From an uncultured Actinomycetes bacterium (GTDB lineage: Bacteria > Actinomycetota > Actinomycetes > Nanopelagicales > Nanopelagicaceae), in the NCBI GenBank assembly GCA_903852585.1, contig CAINRG010000052.1:1-39423 (forward strand): a DNA stretch of 39,423 bases, given 5' to 3'. Shown in pieces: positions 19,441-29,164 of the stretch. Position numbers and translations under genes: made by a program. The stretch's first letter is position 1. The number at the start of each line of letters is the position of its first letter. The notes under the pieces were generated by a model. That model was not told the origin of the DNA. It searched no databases and saw only the letters and a list, made by a program, of their open reading frames with translations.

Positions 19441-20393
19441 GCATAGTGCTCGTCACAGGAGGCGCCGGCTATATCGGTTCGACTGCAGTAGCAATTCTTT
19501 TAGATGCAGGATTTCACGTTAGCGTACTTGATGATTTAAGTACTGGTCACGCAGATTCTGTTGATTCGCGAGCCAGGCTAATTGAAGGTTCACTTCTTGA
19601 TAAAGATGCAATTCGCAGAGCAATTGCTGGATGTGACTCGGTCTTGCATTTTGCTGGTAAATCTCTCGTTGGTGAATCTGTAGAAATGCCAGCGCTTTAT
19701 ATGCAGGTAAATGTAGAAGGAAGTACAAATCTGCTCGATGTCATGAAGGAAGTTGGCGTAAATCAGATCGTTTTCTCCTCATCAGCTGCAACTTATGGCG
19801 AGCCGCGCGAGGCGATTCTTACCGAAGAATCAGAAACTCAACCAACAAATCCGTATGGTGAATCAAAACTTAAGGTTGATCAACTTCTCAGCGAGCGTGC
19901 TGTGAAAGATGGAATTGCTGCCCTTTCACTTCGTTATTTCAATGTTGCTGGAGCATTCAAAGGCTCACGTGGATGGCTAACAGAGCGCCACAATCCAGAG
20001 ACGCATCTGATTCCCAATGTCTTAAAAGCAAGCGATTCACATCCGGTCACAGTATTTGGAATTGATTGGCCTACCGCCGACGGCACATGCATTCGTGATT
20101 ACATTCACGTTATCGATCTGATTGACGCCCATATAAAAGCTCTCAAGATTCTCAAAAATGGCACCCATGAGATCATTAATCTTGGAAGTGGTGAGGGCTA
20201 TTCCGTTCGCCAAGTTATAGATACAGCATCTGACGTGATGGGCAGAAAAGTTCCTACTCGTGATGCGCAAAGGCGTGCTGGCGATCCAGCGGTATTAGTC
20301 GCATCTATTGAGAAAGCTCAATCACTTCTCAATTGGAAGCCGACGAAGAATTTGTCGGAGATGATTTCTGACGTTTATAGCTCTACTCGTTAA
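19437..20393 (+). CDS. galE: UDP-glucose 4-epimerase
   Basis: Interconverts UDP-glucose and UDP-galactose with bound NAD. The extended-SDR protein has 318 residues: the Rossmann motif TGGAGYIGS, the SSSAATYGEP strand with active-site Ser, and YGESK as the catalytic Tyr-x3-Lys. The start taken is TTG 19437, which overlaps the galT stop (TTGA); GTG 19446 is an alternative three codons later. With galT it supplies UDP-galactose or uses galactose. Its stop codon is shared in a TTAA palindrome with the convergent ACT gene. Confidence 0.93.
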   Translation: MSIVLVTGGAGYIGSTAVAILLDAGFHVSVLDDLSTGHADSVDSRARLIEGSLLDKDAIRRAIAGCDSVLHFAGKSLVGESVEMPALYMQVNVEGSTNLLDVMKEVGVNQIVFSSSAATYGEPREAILTEESETQPTNPYGESKLKVDQLLSERAVKDGIAALSLRYFNVAGAFKGSRGWLTERHNPETHLIPNVLKASDSHPVTVFGIDWPTADGTCIRDYIHVIDLIDAHIKALKILKNGTHEIINLGSGEGYSVRQVIDTASDVMGRKVPTRDAQRRAGDPAVLVASIEKAQSLLNWKPTKNLSEMISDVYSSTR

Positions 20394-20626
20394 GCGGGAT
20401 TACAAGAAAGAACTTCAACGCCACCAATTTGGCCAAGAACGTTGAGCAAATCTGTTGGATCACTTCCTGGAATCGCCACAGTCACTTCATCAAATCCACG
20501 GCCATTCTCACTCTTAATAACCTGAAGTCCACGGATATCTCCGCCAGCAAATCCGATTGCAGATGCCATCGCTCCCAGTGAACCGGGACGATCTGGAAGT
20601 GAAACTTCGAGTTTAAAAAGTGCCAT
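20390..20626 (-). CDS. Single ACT-domain protein
   Basis: A 78-residue protein that is one ACT domain: FKLEVSLPDRPGSLGAMASAI has the usual strand, then the loop with conserved Gly at the ligand site, and helix. ACT domains bind amino acids and regulate enzymes as dimers. Being free-standing, it may sense an amino acid for a partner that is not obvious here. It is convergent with galE and divergent in no pair; a TTATCT hexamer lies 6 nt upstream but does not fit TANNNT strictly. Confidence 0.85.
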   Translation of the reverse strand: MALFKLEVSLPDRPGSLGAMASAIGFAGGDIRGLQVIKSENGRGFDEVTVAIPGSDPTDLLNVLGQIGGVEVLSCNPA

Positions 20627-20677: not shown

Positions 20678-21556
20678 CTAGGCCTGAACGATGTTCTCGC
20701 CCTGAATTGATACCGAGATCTTTGGAAGCGGGGTCGGAGCAGGACCTGCCAAGACAGCGCCTTCGTGTGTGGGATCAAAGCGCGCGCCGTGACAAGGGCA
20801 AGCAAGTTGATTTCCGAGTGAATCGTAATTAACTGTGCAACCCTGGTGGGTACAGATTCGGCTATAGGCAAAGACGCCAGCCTTTGTTCTAAAGAGAATT
20901 GCAGGTGATCCATCCATTGCAGTGAATTCTTTTGTGGAACCAATACTTACATCTGCCAGTTTTGCGATAACGGTATTCACGGAACCCTTCTTGGGACGTA
21001 AAGATCCGCCTGCAAGAGCCCCGATAACTGAAGTCACTGCGACACCAGCAATACGAATGACTTCGCGACGATCGCGAAGGTTTGGAATCAAACCACCATC
21101 ATGGCGGCCACGGCCATTGTTGGAATTTCGCACCATGATGAATAAAGAAATCCATAGAACTGCATAAGGCAGGTCATTGCTGAGAAAATATGGATGAACA
21201 TGGAAGCTCACCGATAGCCACAAAATTATCGCCATCGAGAATCCGCCAAGAGTCGCTGCTTGAAGAGCAACACCGGCCAGCACTGCTATTCCTATTGCAA
21301 ATTCAGAGAGCATGACAAACCAAGCGAATAAGGTCGCATGTTCGAGCATGTGTTTCAATAGAAATGAAATGGGTGAATGGCCAATCATTCCGTTTATCTG
21401 AGCCCCAAAATAATTTGGAGATGCAGCATCAAGATATCCGCCGTCAGTTGCCTTCGCCCATCCGCCATATATCCAGGTCACTCCGAGCCAAAGGCGGATG
21501 ATTGTCATATAGAGCGGTTGTGCTCGCCAAGAGTTAAGGCCAAATCGTGAAGTCAT
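20678..21556 (-). CDS. DoxX-like membrane protein fused to a Rieske 2Fe-2S domain
   Basis: A 292-residue fusion. The start is put at ATG 21556, supported by TACTCT 6 nt upstream; earlier in-frame codons run into the divergent gene's repeat and promoter. Residues about 10-150 form a four-helix DoxX/DoxD-like membrane domain (RLWLGVTWIYGGWAKATDGGYL, EFAIGIAVLAGV). Then DRREVIRIAG precedes another hydrophobic segment, which resembles a twin-arginine signal anchor. The C-terminal Rieske domain has both cluster motifs, CTHQGC and CPCHGARFD. The role is probably electron transfer at the outer face of the membrane, perhaps with quinone or thiosulfate; the substrate is unknown. Confidence 0.88.
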   Translation of the reverse strand: MTSRFGLNSWRAQPLYMTIIRLWLGVTWIYGGWAKATDGGYLDAASPNYFGAQINGMIGHSPISFLLKHMLEHATLFAWFVMLSEFAIGIAVLAGVALQAATLGGFSMAIILWLSVSFHVHPYFLSNDLPYAVLWISLFIMVRNSNNGRGRHDGGLIPNLRDRREVIRIAGVAVTSVIGALAGGSLRPKKGSVNTVIAKLADVSIGSTKEFTAMDGSPAILFRTKAGVFAYSRICTHQGCTVNYDSLGNQLACPCHGARFDPTHEGAVLAGPAPTPLPKISVSIQGENIVQA

Positions 21557-21603: not shown

Positions 21604-22341
<738 letters not shown>

Positions 22342-22367
22342 ATTCGCTCACCGACAGAGGAGAAATC

Positions 22368-23345
22368 ATGAAAAAGAGAAATTTGGGAACACTCGAAGTA
22401 AGCGCAATCGGCTTAGGCTGCATGGGCATGAGTGATTTCTACGGTCCTCGCAACGATGACGAATCAATTTCCGTCATTCGTCATGCACTCGATATTGGCG
22501 TCACATTTATCGATACTGCCGACATGTACGGTCCTTTTACAAACGAGATTCTCGTTGGAAAGGCAATTGCTGGGCGCCGCGATGAAGTCGTTCTGGCTAC
22601 AAAGTTTGGAAATGAACGCGCCGCAGATGGATCCTTTATAGGGGTAAACGGTAAGGCCGATTACGTTCGCACCGCTTGTGATGCTTCACTCAAGCGCCTT
22701 GGTGTTGACCACATTGACTTGTATTACCAGCACCGCGTTGATCGCTCCGTACCCATTGAAGAGACATGGGGAGCTATGAAGGAACTTGTCGAAGCCGGCA
22801 AAGTTACTCACTTAGGAATTTCAGAAGCCCTTGCGCCAACAATTCGCAAGGCTCACTCTGTTCACCCCATCACCGCAATTCAATCTGAATATTCGCTCTG
22901 GAGCCGTGACCCTGAAGTTAATGGAGTCTTTGAAGTGGCAAAAGAGCTCGGGATTGGATTTGTTCCTTACTCACCTCTTGGGCGCGGATTCCTTACGGGA
23001 ACAATCGCATCGACAAATGAGTTGGATGCATCAGATCGCCGTCGAACGTATCCACGTTGGAATGACGAGAACTTCGATGCAAATATGAAAATCGTTGAGA
23101 AGATTAAAGCCATAGCCAATGAGAAGAGCGCAAGTGCTGCTCAGATTGCTCTTGCATGGACACTTGCGATGAATCCTCACAACGCACCTATTCCGGGCAC
23201 ACGTAAGATTTCTCGCCTCGATGAAAATGCTGCAGCAGTAAACATCACATTAACTGCCGAAGATCTCTCTCGCGTCAACGAGGCAGCTCCCGTTGGAGTT
23301 GCAATCGGCGAGCGCTATCCAGATATGTCGACAGTCAACGCGTAG
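22368..23345 (+). CDS. Aldo/keto reductase
   Basis: An NADPH-dependent TIM-barrel oxidoreductase of 325 residues, in the AKR13-like group by its opening [22 protein letters not shown]. The catalytic tetrad is visible: Asp and Tyr in FIDTADMYG, Lys in LATKFG, and His in YYQHRVD. The C-terminal coenzyme site is [17 protein letters not shown]. It acts in the cytoplasm on an unknown carbonyl substrate. Unlike its neighbours it has a strong Shine-Dalgarno sequence (GAGGAGAAATC before ATG), so it is probably co-transcribed with the hydrolase 26 bp upstream. Confidence 0.93.
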
Positions 23346-23350
23346 AAAAA

Positions 23351-24085
23351 TTAAGACTGTTGGTTAATTGACCAAAGAGTCCAGATGTGAGTACGTACTG
23401 AACGAGGTTGCTTCAAGATCGTTGTGATCTGGAATGCAATATCTTCTGAGCGTAGGAAGCTTGCAAGTACAGGTGTACCCGCTGTGCGACCGGCACCAAT
23501 TGCGAACTCTGTTTCCGTTCCTGCTGGACAGACGAGTGCAACGCGTACACCTTTTTCGCGGAGTTCGCGATCAAGTCCACCTGCAAGACCAACTTGTGCA
23601 TGCTTTGTTCCAGCGTAGATGGATTCATCTCCGCCTCCACGGAAGCCTGCAACAGAGGAAACGATGACGATATCGCCAGCCTTCTTCTCAATCATTGTTG
23701 GTAAACATGCACGAATGATGTGAACGGTACCTTCGTAATTTGTACGCATCATGCGATTTACTTCATCATCGCTGTAATCAAGAATTGATCCATACATGCC
23801 GATACCCGCATTTGGCACAACAGCATCAATAGTTCCAAACTTATCTAGCGCTGCCTTTGCTACCGCGCGGGAAACGTCAGGTTCTGAACAATCACCAGCA
23901 ACATATGTTGCATTCGCCTCGCCAAGGGATGAAACAATCTCTTTGAGTCGAGCTTCGTTACGAGCGTTCAGCACAACTTTCGCACCTTGCTCAACGAGTT
24001 CTTTGGCCGTTGCTGCACCCATTCCTGCAGTGGCTCCGGTGATTACGATTACTTGACCCTTAAGGTCTCTGAGTGCGTATGTCAT
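23351..24085 (-). CDS. Short-chain dehydrogenase/reductase
   Basis: A classical SDR of 244 residues: TGATAGMGAATAK cofactor motif, NAG in VPNAGIGMYG, active Ser in VIVSSVAGFRGG, and the YAGTK Tyr-x3-Lys pair. The charged residue pattern after the second strand (LNARNEARLK) suggests NADP(H), which is inference. The substrate is unknown. It is convergent with the aldo/keto reductase, with 5 bp between stops. The start has only an imperfect -10 (CATACT) at 6 nt. Confidence 0.92.
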   Translation of the reverse strand: MTYALRDLKGQVIVITGATAGMGAATAKELVEQGAKVVLNARNEARLKEIVSSLGEANATYVAGDCSEPDVSRAVAKAALDKFGTIDAVVPNAGIGMYGSILDYSDDEVNRMMRTNYEGTVHIIRACLPTMIEKKAGDIVIVSSVAGFRGGGDESIYAGTKHAQVGLAGGLDRELREKGVRVALVCPAGTETEFAIGAGRTAGTPVLASFLRSEDIAFQITTILKQPRSVRTHIWTLWSINQQS

Positions 24086-24111
24086 GCACGAAGTATGCGT
24101 GAGGTGCGCGC

Positions 24112-25317
24112 CTAGCGCAAGGTCGCTCCGATAAAGCTTGGTGACATTGGATACATCGCCAAGAGACAGGCATTCAGGGCGTGGTAAATATCAGGCTTTC
24201 CTTCCCATGTCGAAGTAGAGACTTCCTGTCGTGCATTGAGTTCGTGAAACCACGATCCCTTTTCTTTATCAATCAGATATTGATCGATATAGCTCCACCA
24301 TTTTTCATAATCCTCAAGATAAATCCCCTCCCCTGTAAAATGGTGAAGGGTCCACGAAGTCATCGCAGCCTCTGCGGCAACCCAATGCATACGTTCTTTT
24401 ACGACAGGCTTTCTCTGCCAATCCATCGTGTAAATAAATCCATCAGAACCATCTGCGCCCCAGCCATATTTCTTCGCAGCTTCATACATGCCTTTCGCGC
24501 CAACATCAGCCCACTCCATTTTCATTTCGGTGGGTGCAATGAGCTTTACCTGTAGCACAAATCGAGCCCATTCAAGAAGATGTCCAATCGTCACCCCAAA
24601 GGGTCTAAAGGGATCGGCGGGGCGATCGCTATTGAAATCTTTGAGTACCTGCCAATTTTCATCAAAATGCTCGGGCAGAAGAAAATCATTCTTCATCACG
24701 ATTTCCACCATTGTGCGCTCACAAATAGATAATGCGCGGTCACGATATTTCACCTCTTTTGTAACTTCATATGCTGAAATCAGAGCCTCTACCGCATGCA
24801 TATTTGCATTGATCCCATGATAGGAATCGAGCAAAGAAAATTCTTGATTCCAAGAGTTATGCATCATCCTGTGTTGAGGATCCCAAAATTTTGAATCTAT
24901 AACTGCATCAATTTTTTCAAAAAGTTCATCTGCTCCCTTGACCCCAACTACCTTTGCAGTTGATGCGGCAAGAAGTACGAACATATGGTCGTAGGCCATT
25001 TTTTCAGTGCTAACAAATTTTCCATCCGAAGTGATCGCACTAAAAAATCCACCATTGTTCTTATCCTCAAAAAGATTGAGCAATCCATTCACGCCGTGCT
25101 CGACGAGCTCGACAAGATCTTTAGAATCACTGAGTCCGTGAAGGTGGCCCAACCCAAAGGATTGAATCATGCGGCAATTAATCCAGAGTTCTAGGGGTTT
25201 TGATGAATCAACTTTTCCATCGCCGTCGAGGTATCCAAATCCTCCCGATGGGAGAGCAGAAGCGCGCGCAAAATCTAAAAGTCTCTTTGCCTCACGCTCA
25301 AGATTTGGAACTCCCAT
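24112..25317 (-). CDS. AGE-family sugar isomerase/epimerase (YihS/mannose isomerase-like)
   Basis: A 401-residue (alpha/alpha)6-barrel protein of the N-acylglucosamine 2-epimerase superfamily. Features are WINCRMIQSFGLGHLHG at the active-site rim, conserved His in NANMHAVEALI and GHLLEWARF, and HWVAAEAAMTSW near the C-terminus. Relatives interconvert mannose and fructose or glucose, or isomerise sulfoquinovose. The residues needed to choose between these cannot be judged by eye. Context gives no sulfoquinovose genes. The SDR gene follows 26 bp downstream and may be co-transcribed. The start is supported by TATCGT 6 nt upstream. Confidence 0.88.
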   Translation of the reverse strand: MGVPNLEREAKRLLDFARASALPSGGFGYLDGDGKVDSSKPLELWINCRMIQSFGLGHLHGLSDSKDLVELVEHGVNGLLNLFEDKNNGGFFSAITSDGKFVSTEKMAYDHMFVLLAASTAKVVGVKGADELFEKIDAVIDSKFWDPQHRMMHNSWNQEFSLLDSYHGINANMHAVEALISAYEVTKEVKYRDRALSICERTMVEIVMKNDFLLPEHFDENWQVLKDFNSDRPADPFRPFGVTIGHLLEWARFVLQVKLIAPTEMKMEWADVGAKGMYEAAKKYGWGADGSDGFIYTMDWQRKPVVKERMHWVAAEAAMTSWTLHHFTGEGIYLEDYEKWWSYIDQYLIDKEKGSWFHELNARQEVSTSTWEGKPDIYHALNACLLAMYPMSPSFIGATLR

Positions 25318-25329
25318 GGCACAACGATA
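25318..25329 (-). promoter_or_regulatory. Putative -10 element, leaderless start of the AGE-family gene
   Basis: TATCGT (25329-25324) is exactly 6 nt from the ATG at 25317. Confidence 0.55.
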
Positions 25330-25378
25330 GCCAGCACTCTCAAGAATTCAATCAGAGGCTATAGACGAAAAGTAGGCG

Positions 25379-25390
25379 TACACTGAAAAT
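25379..25390 (+). promoter_or_regulatory. Putative -10 element, leaderless start of the SOUL gene
   Basis: TACACT (25379-25384) is exactly 6 nt before ATG 25391. The gap, GAAAAT, is not a ribosome-binding site. The same hexamer is used by the ZIP transporter gene. Confidence 0.6.
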
Positions 25391-25921
25391 ATGACCGAGC
25401 GCCAGAAGTTCCAGATGCTTCAGAAGTACAACAGCTTCGAATTACGTCGATACGAGCCATGCGTTGTCGCTGAGGTCTCTGTGAAGGATGACTACCGCTC
25501 TGCTGCTAACAAGGCCTTTCGCCCACTCTTTAATTACATCTCCAAGAACAACTCCACAGCCACAGGCATATCCATGACAGCACCGGTAGTTGCGCGAAAG
25601 CAAGAGGCTAGCGGAGCGCAGGAATGGATTATTCACTTTGTGATGCCCGCTGGATCAACGTTGAAAGATTTGCCGCACCCCAAAGATGCAAAGGTGCTTT
25701 TGCGAGAAGTTCCGGAAGAGGATTGTGTTGCAATTTCATTCAGGGGCCGAGCTACCGAAAGCCTCTGCAGAAAGAACGAGGAAGTTCTGAGGCTTCAAGC
25801 GGAAAAAGAACACTTCCAGTTGTCGGCAGAAACTCGAATCGCCCGCTTTGACCCTCCATTTAAACCAGGGTTCTTGATGTACAACGAGATTGTCATACCG
25901 CTTCTAAAATCTGAGAAATAA
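25391..25921 (+). CDS. SOUL heme-binding family protein
   Basis: A 176-residue protein with the SOUL fold: FELRRYEPCVVAEVSV, then FRPLFNYISKNNST followed by ISMTAPVV, which is the family hallmark. A late LMYNEIVIPL strand closes the domain. Animal members bind heme or act in apoptosis. Bacterial members are poorly characterised, and heme binding here is only possible. No signal peptide. The stop lies one base before the tRNA-Asn end (opposite strand). Confidence 0.9.
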   Translation: MTERQKFQMLQKYNSFELRRYEPCVVAEVSVKDDYRSAANKAFRPLFNYISKNNSTATGISMTAPVVARKQEASGAQEWIIHFVMPAGSTLKDLPHPKDAKVLLREVPEEDCVAISFRGRATESLCRKNEEVLRLQAEKEHFQLSAETRIARFDPPFKPGFLMYNEIVIPLLKSEK

Positions 25922-25922
25922 G

Positions 25923-25995
25923 CTCCCCCGGCTGGCCTCGATCCAGCGACATCTCGATTAACAGTCGAGTGCTCTACCAACTGAGCTACAGGGGA
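25923..25995 (-). tRNA. tRNA-Asn (GTT)
   Basis: Cloverleaf of 73 nt on the minus strand: acceptor TCCCCTG pairing with CGGGGGA (one T:G wobble), D-arm GCTCAGTTGGTAGAGC, anticodon loop CTGTTAA with anticodon GTT, T-arm with GGATCGAGG-type loop, discriminator G. CCA is not encoded. It lies after dnaG in the same direction, with an 84-bp gap. Confidence 0.95.
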
Positions 25996-26079: not shown

Positions 26080-27903
26080 CTAAAGGGAATCCCCTATCGC
26101 CAATTCCTTCTGGACCCGCTTTGTGGCCTCAAGAGCGACTAATTCCGTGAAAATCTTTGTGTACTCCGCCTCATTTTCCACAGGGTTCAGGCGCTGAAGG
26201 GTCGACTTTATCTCTGCAATCTGGCGACTAATTGCGACTTCACGAAGTCTGGCGAAAATACTGGTGACATATTTGTCGCTCACTTCGCCATCCATGCGGA
26301 TCGGCTCCACTGTGAGTTCTGTTATGAGATGTTTGTAATCATCGGGTGCTGCATCAATTAATTTTTGTGTATCGCCATCTCCATTATCAATTGCTTGGCG
26401 AAGGGCAGCATAGGGAGCATATGTAAATGCTGATTCTTCAAGCGCGCTCCAGTCGGCAATCATCTCTGGCACTTGGAGCTTTGCCTTCAATACTTCACGT
26501 TCGAGCATCAAGAGAGGATCTTTGAGATTAATCTGTCCAGCTGGGATATTTGGAAGTGGCGTATTGCTCTTGCCGGCAACTCGCTTTACCGCTTGTGAAA
26601 CGGTGTCAGTATCCATGCCTAGCCATCCGGCAAGTGAGCGAATGTATTCAGGGCGAAGAGATGTGTCTTTAATCTTTCCAATAAGCGGAGCTACTTGGTT
26701 CAGCGCTGTGACGCGACCTTCCGGTGTATTTGTGTCGTAATTCTTAATGACGGACTTAATGGCAAATTCGAAGAGTGGGACACGTCGCGCAATGAGATCA
26801 CGCACTGCCTCATCTCCCCCACTTTGGCGCAATTCGTTTGGATCCATCCCGTTTCCGGCAACTGCGACAAATGTTTGAGCAACAAACTTCTGGTCATCAT
26901 CAAATGCTCGGAGCGCCGCCTTTTGACCAGCGGCATCTCCATCGAATGTGAAGATGACTTCACCGCGAAATGCATCATCATCCATCAACAATCTACGTAT
27001 AACGCGGATATGGTCATCCCCGAACGCTGTTCCACATGTCGCGACCGCCGTTGTTACTCCGGCAAGGTGCGCTGCCATGACATCGGTATATCCCTCAACG
27101 ATGACAACCTGACGCTTTTTTGCGATCTCTTTCTTAGCCACATCCAGGCCGTAGAGAAGTTGAGATTTTTTATAGATGGGGGTCTCTGATGTATTGAGGT
27201 ATTTAGGTCCTTGGTCCACATCATCGCCAGCAATTTTTCTTGCACCAAATCCCACAACATCTCCGGAGATATCTTTTACTGGCCACATCACGCGGTTTCG
27301 ATATCGGTCGATTTGGGTTCCGCGAGCGCTCTCTTTAATGAGTCCGGCAGTGGTCTGCTCTTCTTGGGTGTAGCCAAGGGAAGTCAGATGCTTTGTGAGC
27401 GCATCCCATTCATCAGGTGCGAACCCAACCTGGAATTGATCGCAATCTGCTTTTGTGAAGCCCTTCTTCTGAAGAAAGTCGCGGCCAGCTTGTGCTGGGC
27501 CTGGAAGATTGAGTTGTTCCTGGTAGAACTTCATCGCCGCAATATTTGCTGCAACTAATCGCGAACGGTTGACGCTTGGCCGATCTGATTGTGAACTTTC
27601 GTCGTACCGAAGTGTGTACCCAATCTTCTCGGCAAGTCGTTCAATAGTTTCAGTAAATGTAATGTGATCCATCTTCATGACAAATGCAATGACATCACCG
27701 CCGGTCTGGCAACCAAAGCAGTGGAAATACCCTTTACTCGGAGTTACGTGAAAGGAAGGAGACTTCTCATCGTGGAATGGGCAGAGTCCCTTTTTCTGTC
27801 CCCCGCCTGCGTTCTTTAATTGAACATAATCGGCGACAACTTCATCGATGGGGCTGTGGTCGCGAACATACGCAACATCTTCATCCCTAATACGGCCGGC
27901 CAT
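26080..27903 (-). CDS. dnaG: DNA primase DnaG
   Basis: Makes RNA primers at the replication fork. The start is set at ATG 27903, giving 607 residues and the typical MAGRIRDEDVAYVRDHSPID; the longer frame upstream overlaps the end of dgt and is rejected. The N-terminal zinc finger has Cys41, His44, Cys62 and Cys65. The TOPRIM centre has VIVEGYTDVMA and the acidic FTFDGDAAGQKA. A C-terminal helicase-binding region of lower conservation follows. A TAAGAT element lies 7 nt upstream. dgt-dnaG order is conserved in mycobacteria. Confidence 0.96.
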   Translation of the reverse strand: MAGRIRDEDVAYVRDHSPIDEVVADYVQLKNAGGGQKKGLCPFHDEKSPSFHVTPSKGYFHCFGCQTGGDVIAFVMKMDHITFTETIERLAEKIGYTLRYDESSQSDRPSVNRSRLVAANIAAMKFYQEQLNLPGPAQAGRDFLQKKGFTKADCDQFQVGFAPDEWDALTKHLTSLGYTQEEQTTAGLIKESARGTQIDRYRNRVMWPVKDISGDVVGFGARKIAGDDVDQGPKYLNTSETPIYKKSQLLYGLDVAKKEIAKKRQVVIVEGYTDVMAAHLAGVTTAVATCGTAFGDDHIRVIRRLLMDDDAFRGEVIFTFDGDAAGQKAALRAFDDDQKFVAQTFVAVAGNGMDPNELRQSGGDEAVRDLIARRVPLFEFAIKSVIKNYDTNTPEGRVTALNQVAPLIGKIKDTSLRPEYIRSLAGWLGMDTDTVSQAVKRVAGKSNTPLPNIPAGQINLKDPLLMLEREVLKAKLQVPEMIADWSALEESAFTYAPYAALRQAIDNGDGDTQKLIDAAPDDYKHLITELTVEPIRMDGEVSDKYVTSIFARLREVAISRQIAEIKSTLQRLNPVENEAEYTKIFTELVALEATKRVQKELAIGDSL

Positions 27904-27916
27904 AGCAGCTATCTTA
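27904..27916 (-). promoter_or_regulatory. Putative -10 element upstream of dnaG
   Basis: TAAGAT (27916-27911) lies 7 nt from the dnaG ATG and overlaps the dgt stop codon. It could allow leaderless transcription of dnaG alone within the operon. Confidence 0.4.
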
Positions 27917-29164
27917 CGATGAAAACTTGGAGGAGAGATCTTTGTGCAAGGCGTATGCGCCTGGGTCGGTGAGTGAGGCGACTTGATCAATCACGACGCG
28001 AAGCCTTTGAGCATCAGTGCTGGCTTGACGCCAATCTTCGAGGAAAAAGGACTCCAACGAGACGGGGGCATGTTCGAGAACAAGGTCGACGAGTTCGCGA
28101 ATGAGAACGTGTTGGTCGCTGTATCGCTTCTGAGAACTTTCTGCCTGTAAAACATAGTGGGCAGATATTGCTTTAAGGACTGCTACTTCAATCTTTTGCT
28201 CGCGAGGAACAATGAGATTTGCGTTGTATCGAGTGAGGTCACCATCTCCATATTGATCACGAGTTGCTGTTTCTGCGGCAAGTGCAAATCGACCAACAAG
28301 TTGGCTGGAAAGATCTTTGAGGCGAGCAAGGTGGCGATGGCTTCCATCGTATGTAACCGGCCAGCATGAGAGCTTCTGAAGATCGGAGAGGGCTCTTTCT
28401 GCCTCGGCTTCGCTCATATCATCCATGTAATCAGAGTGAGCAACTTTATAAATCTGTGGAAGATCATCGCGGAGATGGTGCAAATGAATCTGGCTTGTCA
28501 CAAGAGCATCTTCTAAATCGTGTACCGAGTAAGCAACGTCATCAGACCAATCCATGATCTGGGCTTCCATCGATTGCTTTCCTTCAGGTGCGCCTGTGCG
28601 CATCCACGTAAATATCTCCATATCGTCGTCATAGACGCCGAACTTGCGGGCGTTGACCGCGCGAGGCCATGGGTACTTTGTAGCTGCATCAAGGGATGCG
28701 CGAGTGAGATTGAGTCCGATGGACTTTCCGCTCTCATCAACCGTCTTTGCTTCAAGACGAATTAAAAGACGAAGTGATTGTGCATTTCCTTCAAAGCCGC
28801 CGCATTGCGCGGCAATCTCATTCAATACTTCTTCACCATTGTGGCCAAAAGGTGGGTGACCGATGTCGTGTGCAAGACAGGCACCTTCCATCAAATCCGG
28901 ATCTGCACCGAGGGCTTCACCAAGTTCACGGCCCACTTGTGCGCATTCCAATGAATGTGAGAGGCGAGTGCGAGGAAAATCCGTCTGCCATGGAACCGCG
29001 ACTTGTGTCTTTGCAGCAAGTCGACGTAGGGCCCATGAGTGAATGATGCGGGCACGATCTCGTGCAAATTCTGTGCGGCCACCGCGCTTTGCTGGCTCAT
29101 CAAGAAAGCGTTCGCGATCTGAATCTGTATATCCAGTGCGTTCGTGAGCGGGGCGAAGAACCAT
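27914..29164 (-). CDS. dgt: Deoxyguanosinetriphosphate triphosphohydrolase-like protein
   Basis: An HD-domain phosphohydrolase of 416 residues that splits dNTPs into deoxynucleoside and triphosphate in characterised relatives. The N-terminal DRARIIHSWALRRLAAKTQV and TRLSHSLECAQVGRELG carry the first metal His, and ACLAHDIGHPPFGHNGE carries the HD pair. Later, WSDDVAYSVHDLEDA holds the last metal Asp. It may balance dNTP pools near the primase gene. The stop is 10 bp before dnaG. A TAGACT hexamer lies 9 nt before the ATG. Confidence 0.93.
   Translation of the reverse strand: MVLRPAHERTGYTDSDRERFLDEPAKRGGRTEFARDRARIIHSWALRRLAAKTQVAVPWQTDFPRTRLSHSLECAQVGRELGEALGADPDLMEGACLAHDIGHPPFGHNGEEVLNEIAAQCGGFEGNAQSLRLLIRLEAKTVDESGKSIGLNLTRASLDAATKYPWPRAVNARKFGVYDDDMEIFTWMRTGAPEGKQSMEAQIMDWSDDVAYSVHDLEDALVTSQIHLHHLRDDLPQIYKVAHSDYMDDMSEAEAERALSDLQKLSCWPVTYDGSHRHLARLKDLSSQLVGRFALAAETATRDQYGDGDLTRYNANLIVPREQKIEVAVLKAISAHYVLQAESSQKRYSDQHVLIRELVDLVLEHAPVSLESFFLEDWRQASTDAQRLRVVIDQVASLTDPGAYALHKDLSSKFSS

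Follow-up and report, generated by a model that had tools for sequence, protein, structure and literature searches.

A DoxX-Rieske fusion protein widespread in Actinomycetota, a likely dual Sec/Tat membrane protein

In an uncultured actinobacterium of the family Nanopelagicaceae, a DoxX domain is joined to a Rieske electron carrier in one small membrane protein, encoded in the window (the whole stretch of 39,423 nucleotides analysed here, contig CAINRG010000052.1). Sequence, conservation and a structural model suggest that dual Sec/Tat insertion of this fusion is likely, and its placement and route, taken as a whole, appear to us probable. A function in quinone-linked electron transfer outside the cytoplasm, still putative, is plausible.

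Architecture and occurrence of the fusion

The ATG start assigned to the fusion (Table 1) aligns with the starts of its relatives and was preferred to the upstream TTG of the ORF list. Residues 16–117 matched the Pfam models DoxD (39.1 bits, cut-off 22.7) and DoxX (26.6 bits, cut-off 23.6) of the DoxX/DoxD superfamily (PF04173, PF07681), and residues 196–279 matched Rieske (51.0 bits, cut-off 20.3). An AlphaFold2 model, built from 30 homologues of the same family (mean pLDDT 88.6, pTM 0.78), consists of five membrane helices followed by the Rieske beta fold. The order of parts proposed from the letters alone, that is four DoxX-like helices, the motif DRREVIRIAG (residues 162–171), a further hydrophobic segment and a Rieske domain with both cluster motifs, was thus confirmed by Pfam, motifs and model.

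Table 1. Features of the DoxX-Rieske gene and its conserved neighbours (window coordinates)
Feature	Position	Strand	Basis or remark
CDS, DoxX-Rieske fusion	20678..21556	(-)	292 aa; ATG at 21556, stop ends 20678
DoxD/DoxX half, residues 16-147	21116..21511	(-)	Pfam, model, conservation
Membrane helix 1, residues 15-37	21446..21514	(-)	AlphaFold2 model
Membrane helix 2, residues 74-94	21275..21337	(-)	AlphaFold2 model
Membrane helix 3, residues 98-116	21209..21265	(-)	AlphaFold2 model
Membrane helix 4, residues 128-147	21116..21175	(-)	AlphaFold2 model
Twin arginine Arg163-Arg164, putative internal Tat signal motif DRREVIR	21065..21070	(-)	Conservation
Helix 5, residues 165-186 (163-185 in the model), Tat-type hydrophobic region, basic residues behind	20999..21064	(-)	AlphaFold2 model, charge counts
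Rieske [2Fe-2S] domain, residues 195-292	20681..20974	(-)	Pfam, structure matches
Cluster box 1 CTHQGC, residues 235-240	20837..20854	(-)	Cys235/His237 ligands, Cys240 disulfide
Cluster box 2 CPCHGA, residues 253-258	20783..20800	(-)	Cys253/His256 ligands, Cys255 disulfide
ACT-domain-like 78-aa protein, conserved downstream neighbour	20390..20626	(-)	Context
tRNA-Asn(gtt), conserved upstream landmark	25922..25995	(-)	Context
dnaG primase, conserved upstream neighbour	26080..27990	(-)	Context; start codon uncertain

The four cluster ligands and the two disulfide cysteines (C235, H237, C240, C253, C255 and H256) are invariant in all 70 family fusions, and the domain is of the bc1/b6f/arsenite-oxidase type having the disulfide pair. 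Its closest structural matches, with Z scores of 14–15, are the small subunits of arsenite oxidase (AioB) and the Rieske domains of Chlorobaculum and of the cyanobacterial plasma membrane. In bc1 complexes, a Ser and a Tyr hydrogen-bonded to the cluster raise its potential. Both are absent from the window protein, having Ala258 at the Ser position of bc1 proteins and Phe260 at that of Tyr; the family fusions carry mostly Ala (58 of 70, Ser in 7) and Phe (58, Tyr in 12), and most fusions of a wider set likewise have Ala and Phe, for which a lower potential, suited to menaquinol, would be expected.

The full-length protein was found in 117 of the 201 genomes of the order, hence an architecture far above chance; one additional copy is interrupted by Ns and another is cut by a contig end. 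By means of profiles made from 30 members, in a survey confined to Actinomycetota, the same architecture was retrieved in other families of the class and of the phylum. In the Streptomycetaceae, 78 of 298 genomes encode the fusion, mostly in two genera (g380 above all, and g369), where it carries the twin arginine. Most other genomes of that family, belonging to genus g34 (presumably Streptomyces), encode a free DoxX of about 200 aa only, and no Rieske gene was found within about 5 kb of it in the seven loci examined. Fission, loss or separate origin may account for the fused and free states within the Streptomycetaceae. An apparent split of the fusion into two genes in genome G059 was rejected, the break coinciding with NN in the contig; it was therefore taken as an assembly gap rather than a true split.

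The twin arginine and the predicted insertion route

The pair Arg163-Arg164 is invariant in all of the 70 distinct family fusions, down to about 37% identity, and the loop ahead of it varies in length and sequence; of the other columns of this loop none exceeds 46% Arg, except R168 (76%). A second set of 107 fusions, partly overlapping the first, includes about 60 from outside the family and reaches into further families and classes of Actinomycetota; all 107 have a twin arginine followed by a hydrophobic stretch ahead of the Rieske domain, as against 18 of 107 and 4 of 107 when this test was applied within the DoxX half. No fusion without the pair was found in either set, so that the conservation which the sequence-only reading had proposed to survey among fusion homologues was borne out. 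Given the high Arg content of the loop, 53% of shuffled loops also had a twin arginine ahead of the helix, and the weight therefore rests on the positional invariance of the pair rather than on its mere presence. The Tat-signal model TIGR01409 gave no match on the internal segment of the window protein and 15.5 bits on that of two relatives, against a cut-off of 16.7. The case for Tat draws on conservation, and on the DoxX losses described below, rather than on a Tat predictor. TatC is encoded in the source genome (1.35 Mb, 99% complete, 77 contigs).

Lys and Arg residues average 2.1 for the N-terminal tail, 0.46 for loop 3 and 6.8 for the loop carrying the twin arginine, and the long first loop has a mean of 1.9 basic versus 2.7 acidic residues; by this charge bias the N-terminus and the twin-arginine loop are predicted inside. 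Since the model has an even number of helices (four) ahead of the twin arginine, both ends of the DoxX bundle would lie inside and the Rieske domain outside, in agreement with the placement given by the sequence-only reading. Helix 5, rich in Ala and Gly, has the weak hydrophobicity expected and is comparable to helix 3 of the QcrA encoded in the same genome; a crude hydrophobicity index is positive for both helices (0.20 and 0.34 per residue), and by the same index, which is not a delta-G predictor, DoxX helices 1 and 4 are no more hydrophobic than helix 5. Behind it, residues 184–196 contain a mean of 3.2 Lys and Arg. The published rule for dual Sec/Tat proteins is a last helix of low hydrophobicity, to which helix 5 does not clearly conform; basic residues behind the last helix have been shown to release such helices from Sec (PMC5449189).

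On the proposed route, the four DoxX helices would be inserted by the Sec pathway with the N-terminus inside, the Rieske domain would gain its [2Fe-2S] cluster and fold in the cytoplasm, and Tat would recognise Arg163-Arg164 and move helix 5 together with the folded domain across the membrane, leaving the latter anchored outside by an uncleaved helix. Judging from sequence, conservation and model, these three steps, and with them the outer location of the Rieske domain, are in our opinion very probable.

The locus and its DoxX-less short forms

The fusion lies in a fixed family neighbourhood, composed of dgt, dnaG, tRNA-Asn(gtt), the fusion itself, often an HtrA-like gene, the ACT-like small protein and gal genes. 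Such housekeeping surroundings point to vertical descent rather than to a pathway, and no functional operon partner or electron acceptor was found beside the gene at the family loci. The HtrA-like gene, coding for a secreted protease, is often directly downstream on the same strand (L074, L044 and others) and is also present behind DoxX-less Rieske genes. In relatives, dnaG and tRNA-Asn directly precede the fusion; in the window, five genes (21604–25921) lie between the tRNA gene and the fusion, as if inserted beside the former, and were named by eye as dienelactone-hydrolase-like, aldo/keto reductase-like, SDR-like, epimerase-like and a 176-aa SOUL-like protein. An in-frame Ser-Gly repeat, due to a hexamer-type DNA repeat (21658–21705), was observed near the start of the divergent dienelactone-hydrolase-like gene, and on the opposite strand the repeat lengthens the fusion ORF by a spurious stretch rich in Ser and Gln.

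Ten related genomes (L044–L053) encode, in the corresponding syntenic position, the Rieske half alone, with an N-terminal twin-arginine signal (for example, a short form starting MNRRGFLRSAAIAAGALIFGRTQSAIAA-SPKK...); an eleventh candidate (L054) fits, its contig beginning there. These short forms share with the fusion the gene neighbours, the twin-arginine signal and a Rieske half about 41–53% identical, but have no DoxX half, and their signal is N-terminal and apparently cleavable (AxA-type in most), whereas that of the fusion is internal and would remain uncleaved. The single short form tested passes the TIGR01409 model (17.6 versus 16.7 bits). In the dnaG tree, with the artefactual L042 set aside, the short forms are placed among the fusions, about four changes being needed, and the genome of short form L047 is a near sister of a fusion-bearing one; in the Rieske tree, built on few columns, they nest inside the family fusions. 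In three of them (L051, L052 and L053) the four cluster ligands are kept and both disulfide cysteines are lost together, a change that has arisen naturally in an exported Rieske domain; the boxes read CPHQGG/CTHQGG and CPVH/CSVH.

The DoxX half has thus probably been lost about four times at this locus with the twin arginine retained, and the simplest reading is that, after several such losses, the internal twin-arginine helix was re-used as a normal N-terminal Tat signal. Retention of the pair in the short forms argues for a role as Tat signal and against one as a charge setting the topology of the DoxX bundle, and its occurrence at the same locus makes dual Sec/Tat insertion of the fusion likely. 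Together with the invariant pair, the four preceding helices and the presence of TatC, this upholds, as a likely prediction drawn from sequence and model, the proposal that Sec takes the first helices and Tat the last helix with its Rieske domain. The short forms also show that the Rieske half is able to persist without a fused DoxX domain; other DoxX proteins are encoded in the short-form genomes. The further suggestion of a self-contained electron-transfer module is accordingly left unproven, the fused DoxX half being dispensable at the locus in several lineages.

The pair might otherwise be a positive-inside signal, or a product of chance, in a protein inserted by Sec only, whose Rieske domain would stay inside or be threaded out unfolded. 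An Arg-rich loop in which shuffling yields the pair in about half of the cases, and an internal segment under the Tat profile cut-off, would both fit such a reading, which we nevertheless judge very improbable: the twin arginine is the sole invariant pair of the loop, it persists after DoxX loss within an N-terminal Tat signal, and Tat-dependent Rieske proteins gain their cluster before export (PMC7317946).

Putative function and relation to known systems

In the DoxX half, R21, L24, K35, E85 and P122 are invariant in all 56 aligned sequences, fused and free. A fold search with the whole model returned mainly the Rieske half, and the DoxX half was therefore modelled alone (residues 1–147, window 21116–21556; pLDDT 93.6). 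Its best fold match was the human receptor-assembly factor NACHO/TMEM35A (Z 11.8, rmsd 3.3 over 124 residues); the comparison with GGCX, the vitamin K hydroquinone enzyme, gave a Z of 7.8, within the range of unrelated helical bundles, and no PDB relative was found by sequence. On the model, a quinone site in the DoxX half is thinkable. As a last step of the proposed mechanism, the DoxX half would dock or contact the menaquinone pool, and the Rieske domain would shuttle electrons one at a time between this pool and a partner outside the cytoplasm; this is a weaker proposal than the insertion route, and we advance it only tentatively. Carried further, the DoxX half might be a small membrane quinol site feeding a Tat-delivered Rieske domain directly, in a widespread actinobacterial, quinone-linked unit for electron export; such a single-gene shunt, needing no cytochrome b, would lead from menaquinol to an acceptor outside the cytoplasm, an idea that we regard as unlikely for the present.

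Sec/Tat co-insertion is established for QcrA, Sco3746 and a polyferredoxin (Tooke et al. 2017, PMC5449189). As in the route proposed here for the fusion, the first helices of actinobacterial QcrA (S. coelicolor Sco2149) depend on Sec for insertion, and Tat moves the last helix, which has basic residues behind it, with the folded Rieske domain; unlike the fusion, QcrA has three helices, the first ones unrelated, and is a bc1 subunit, whose model the fusion fails. The Sco3746-type heme/MoCo proteins and the NapGH-like polyferredoxin are alike in having four Sec helices, a twin arginine, a fifth Tat helix and an extracytoplasmic cofactor domain, with a membrane partner fused to a Tat substrate (PMC5449189), but differ from the fusion in membrane half and cofactor. 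Some actinobacterial Rieske proteins with five helices were mentioned in a 2020 review (PMC7317946), and KSE_30950 of Kitasatospora setae was described as a five-helix Rieske homologue with a twin arginine at helix 5 and a candidate Sec/Tat protein (Tooke et al. 2017, PMC5449189). The latter shares with the fusion five predicted helices, a twin arginine beside helix 5 and a C-terminal Rieske domain; its source paper lists it as a candidate only, with no mention of DoxX or DoxD (PMC5449189). KSE_30950 probably belongs to the DoxX-Rieske family, as the fusion is widespread in genera of the Streptomycetaceae outside g34.

The sequence-only reading had linked the DoxX half to thiosulfate:quinone oxidation, and the fusion could accordingly be a DoxDA-like thiosulfate:quinone oxidoreductase in which a Rieske domain stands in for DoxA. 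Indeed, DoxDA has a similar DoxD-like four-helix membrane domain, 29 of 30 family members match DoxD, the membrane half of the window protein scores above the Pfam DoxD cut-off, and DoxD is a subunit of the Acidianus enzyme feeding caldariellaquinone (PMC8551704). On the contrary, the fusion reaches 18.8 bits on the equivalog model NF041179 (TQO_large_DoxD), far under the cut-off of 300, DoxA (PF07680) has no match in the 99% complete source genome, no sulfur gene was seen adjoining the fusion, the DoxX half was lost several times while the Rieske half stayed, and the same DoxX halves weakly match other, unrelated DoxX-type families. The link to thiosulfate was therefore not sustained, and we hold a DoxDA-like enzyme to be highly improbable. 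A QcrA paralogue, serving the cytochrome bc1-aa3 chain as a second Rieske subunit, would agree with the type of the C-terminal domain and its disulfide pair, and with the fact that actinobacterial QcrA is also a multi-helix Sec/Tat protein; it appears improbable, as the fusion scores 61.8 against a cut-off of 275 on NF050121, the genome's own QcrA (389 bits) is encoded on another contig, the fusion is unlinked to qcr genes, and the Ser and Tyr of bc1 are replaced by Ala and Phe, as in most fusions.

By analogy with MsrPQ and with the mycobacterial DoxX-SodA-SseA complex, the fusion may instead belong to a redox-repair or stress module, in which DoxX would draw electrons from menaquinol and the Rieske domain would hand them to an extracytoplasmic repair or detoxifying protein. 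The dual-targeted, five-helix Sco3746 family resembles, as a distant analogue, a fusion of MsrQ and MsrP (PMC5449189), mycobacterial DoxX is reported to occur together with SodA and SseA, and an HtrA-like protease gene is often directly downstream of the fusion. This adjacency, however, is absent in the window and may reflect neighbourhood only, and no repair enzyme adjoins the gene; we consider such a module rather unlikely. Quinone-linked electron transfer outside the cytoplasm is retained as a plausible, and the most likely, function of the fusion.

No published account of DoxX or DoxD and Rieske as one protein was found in a search covering few subscription journals. The Sec/Tat principle was already known, and a likely member of the family, KSE_30950, had been listed in 2017; within that literature coverage, the identity of the DoxX half, the breadth of the family, the invariance of the twin arginine and the repeated loss of the DoxX half are apparently new. 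Dual Sec/Tat insertion has been demonstrated for few protein families, to which DoxX-Rieske would add one, common in freshwater actinobacteria with tiny genomes and present across Actinomycetota. It also offers a built-in natural control, in the form of close relatives that lack the four Sec helices and keep the Tat signal, and it ties DoxX, a domain so far poorly understood, to an iron-sulfur carrier outside the cytoplasm, thus raising the concrete question of whether DoxX handles quinone.
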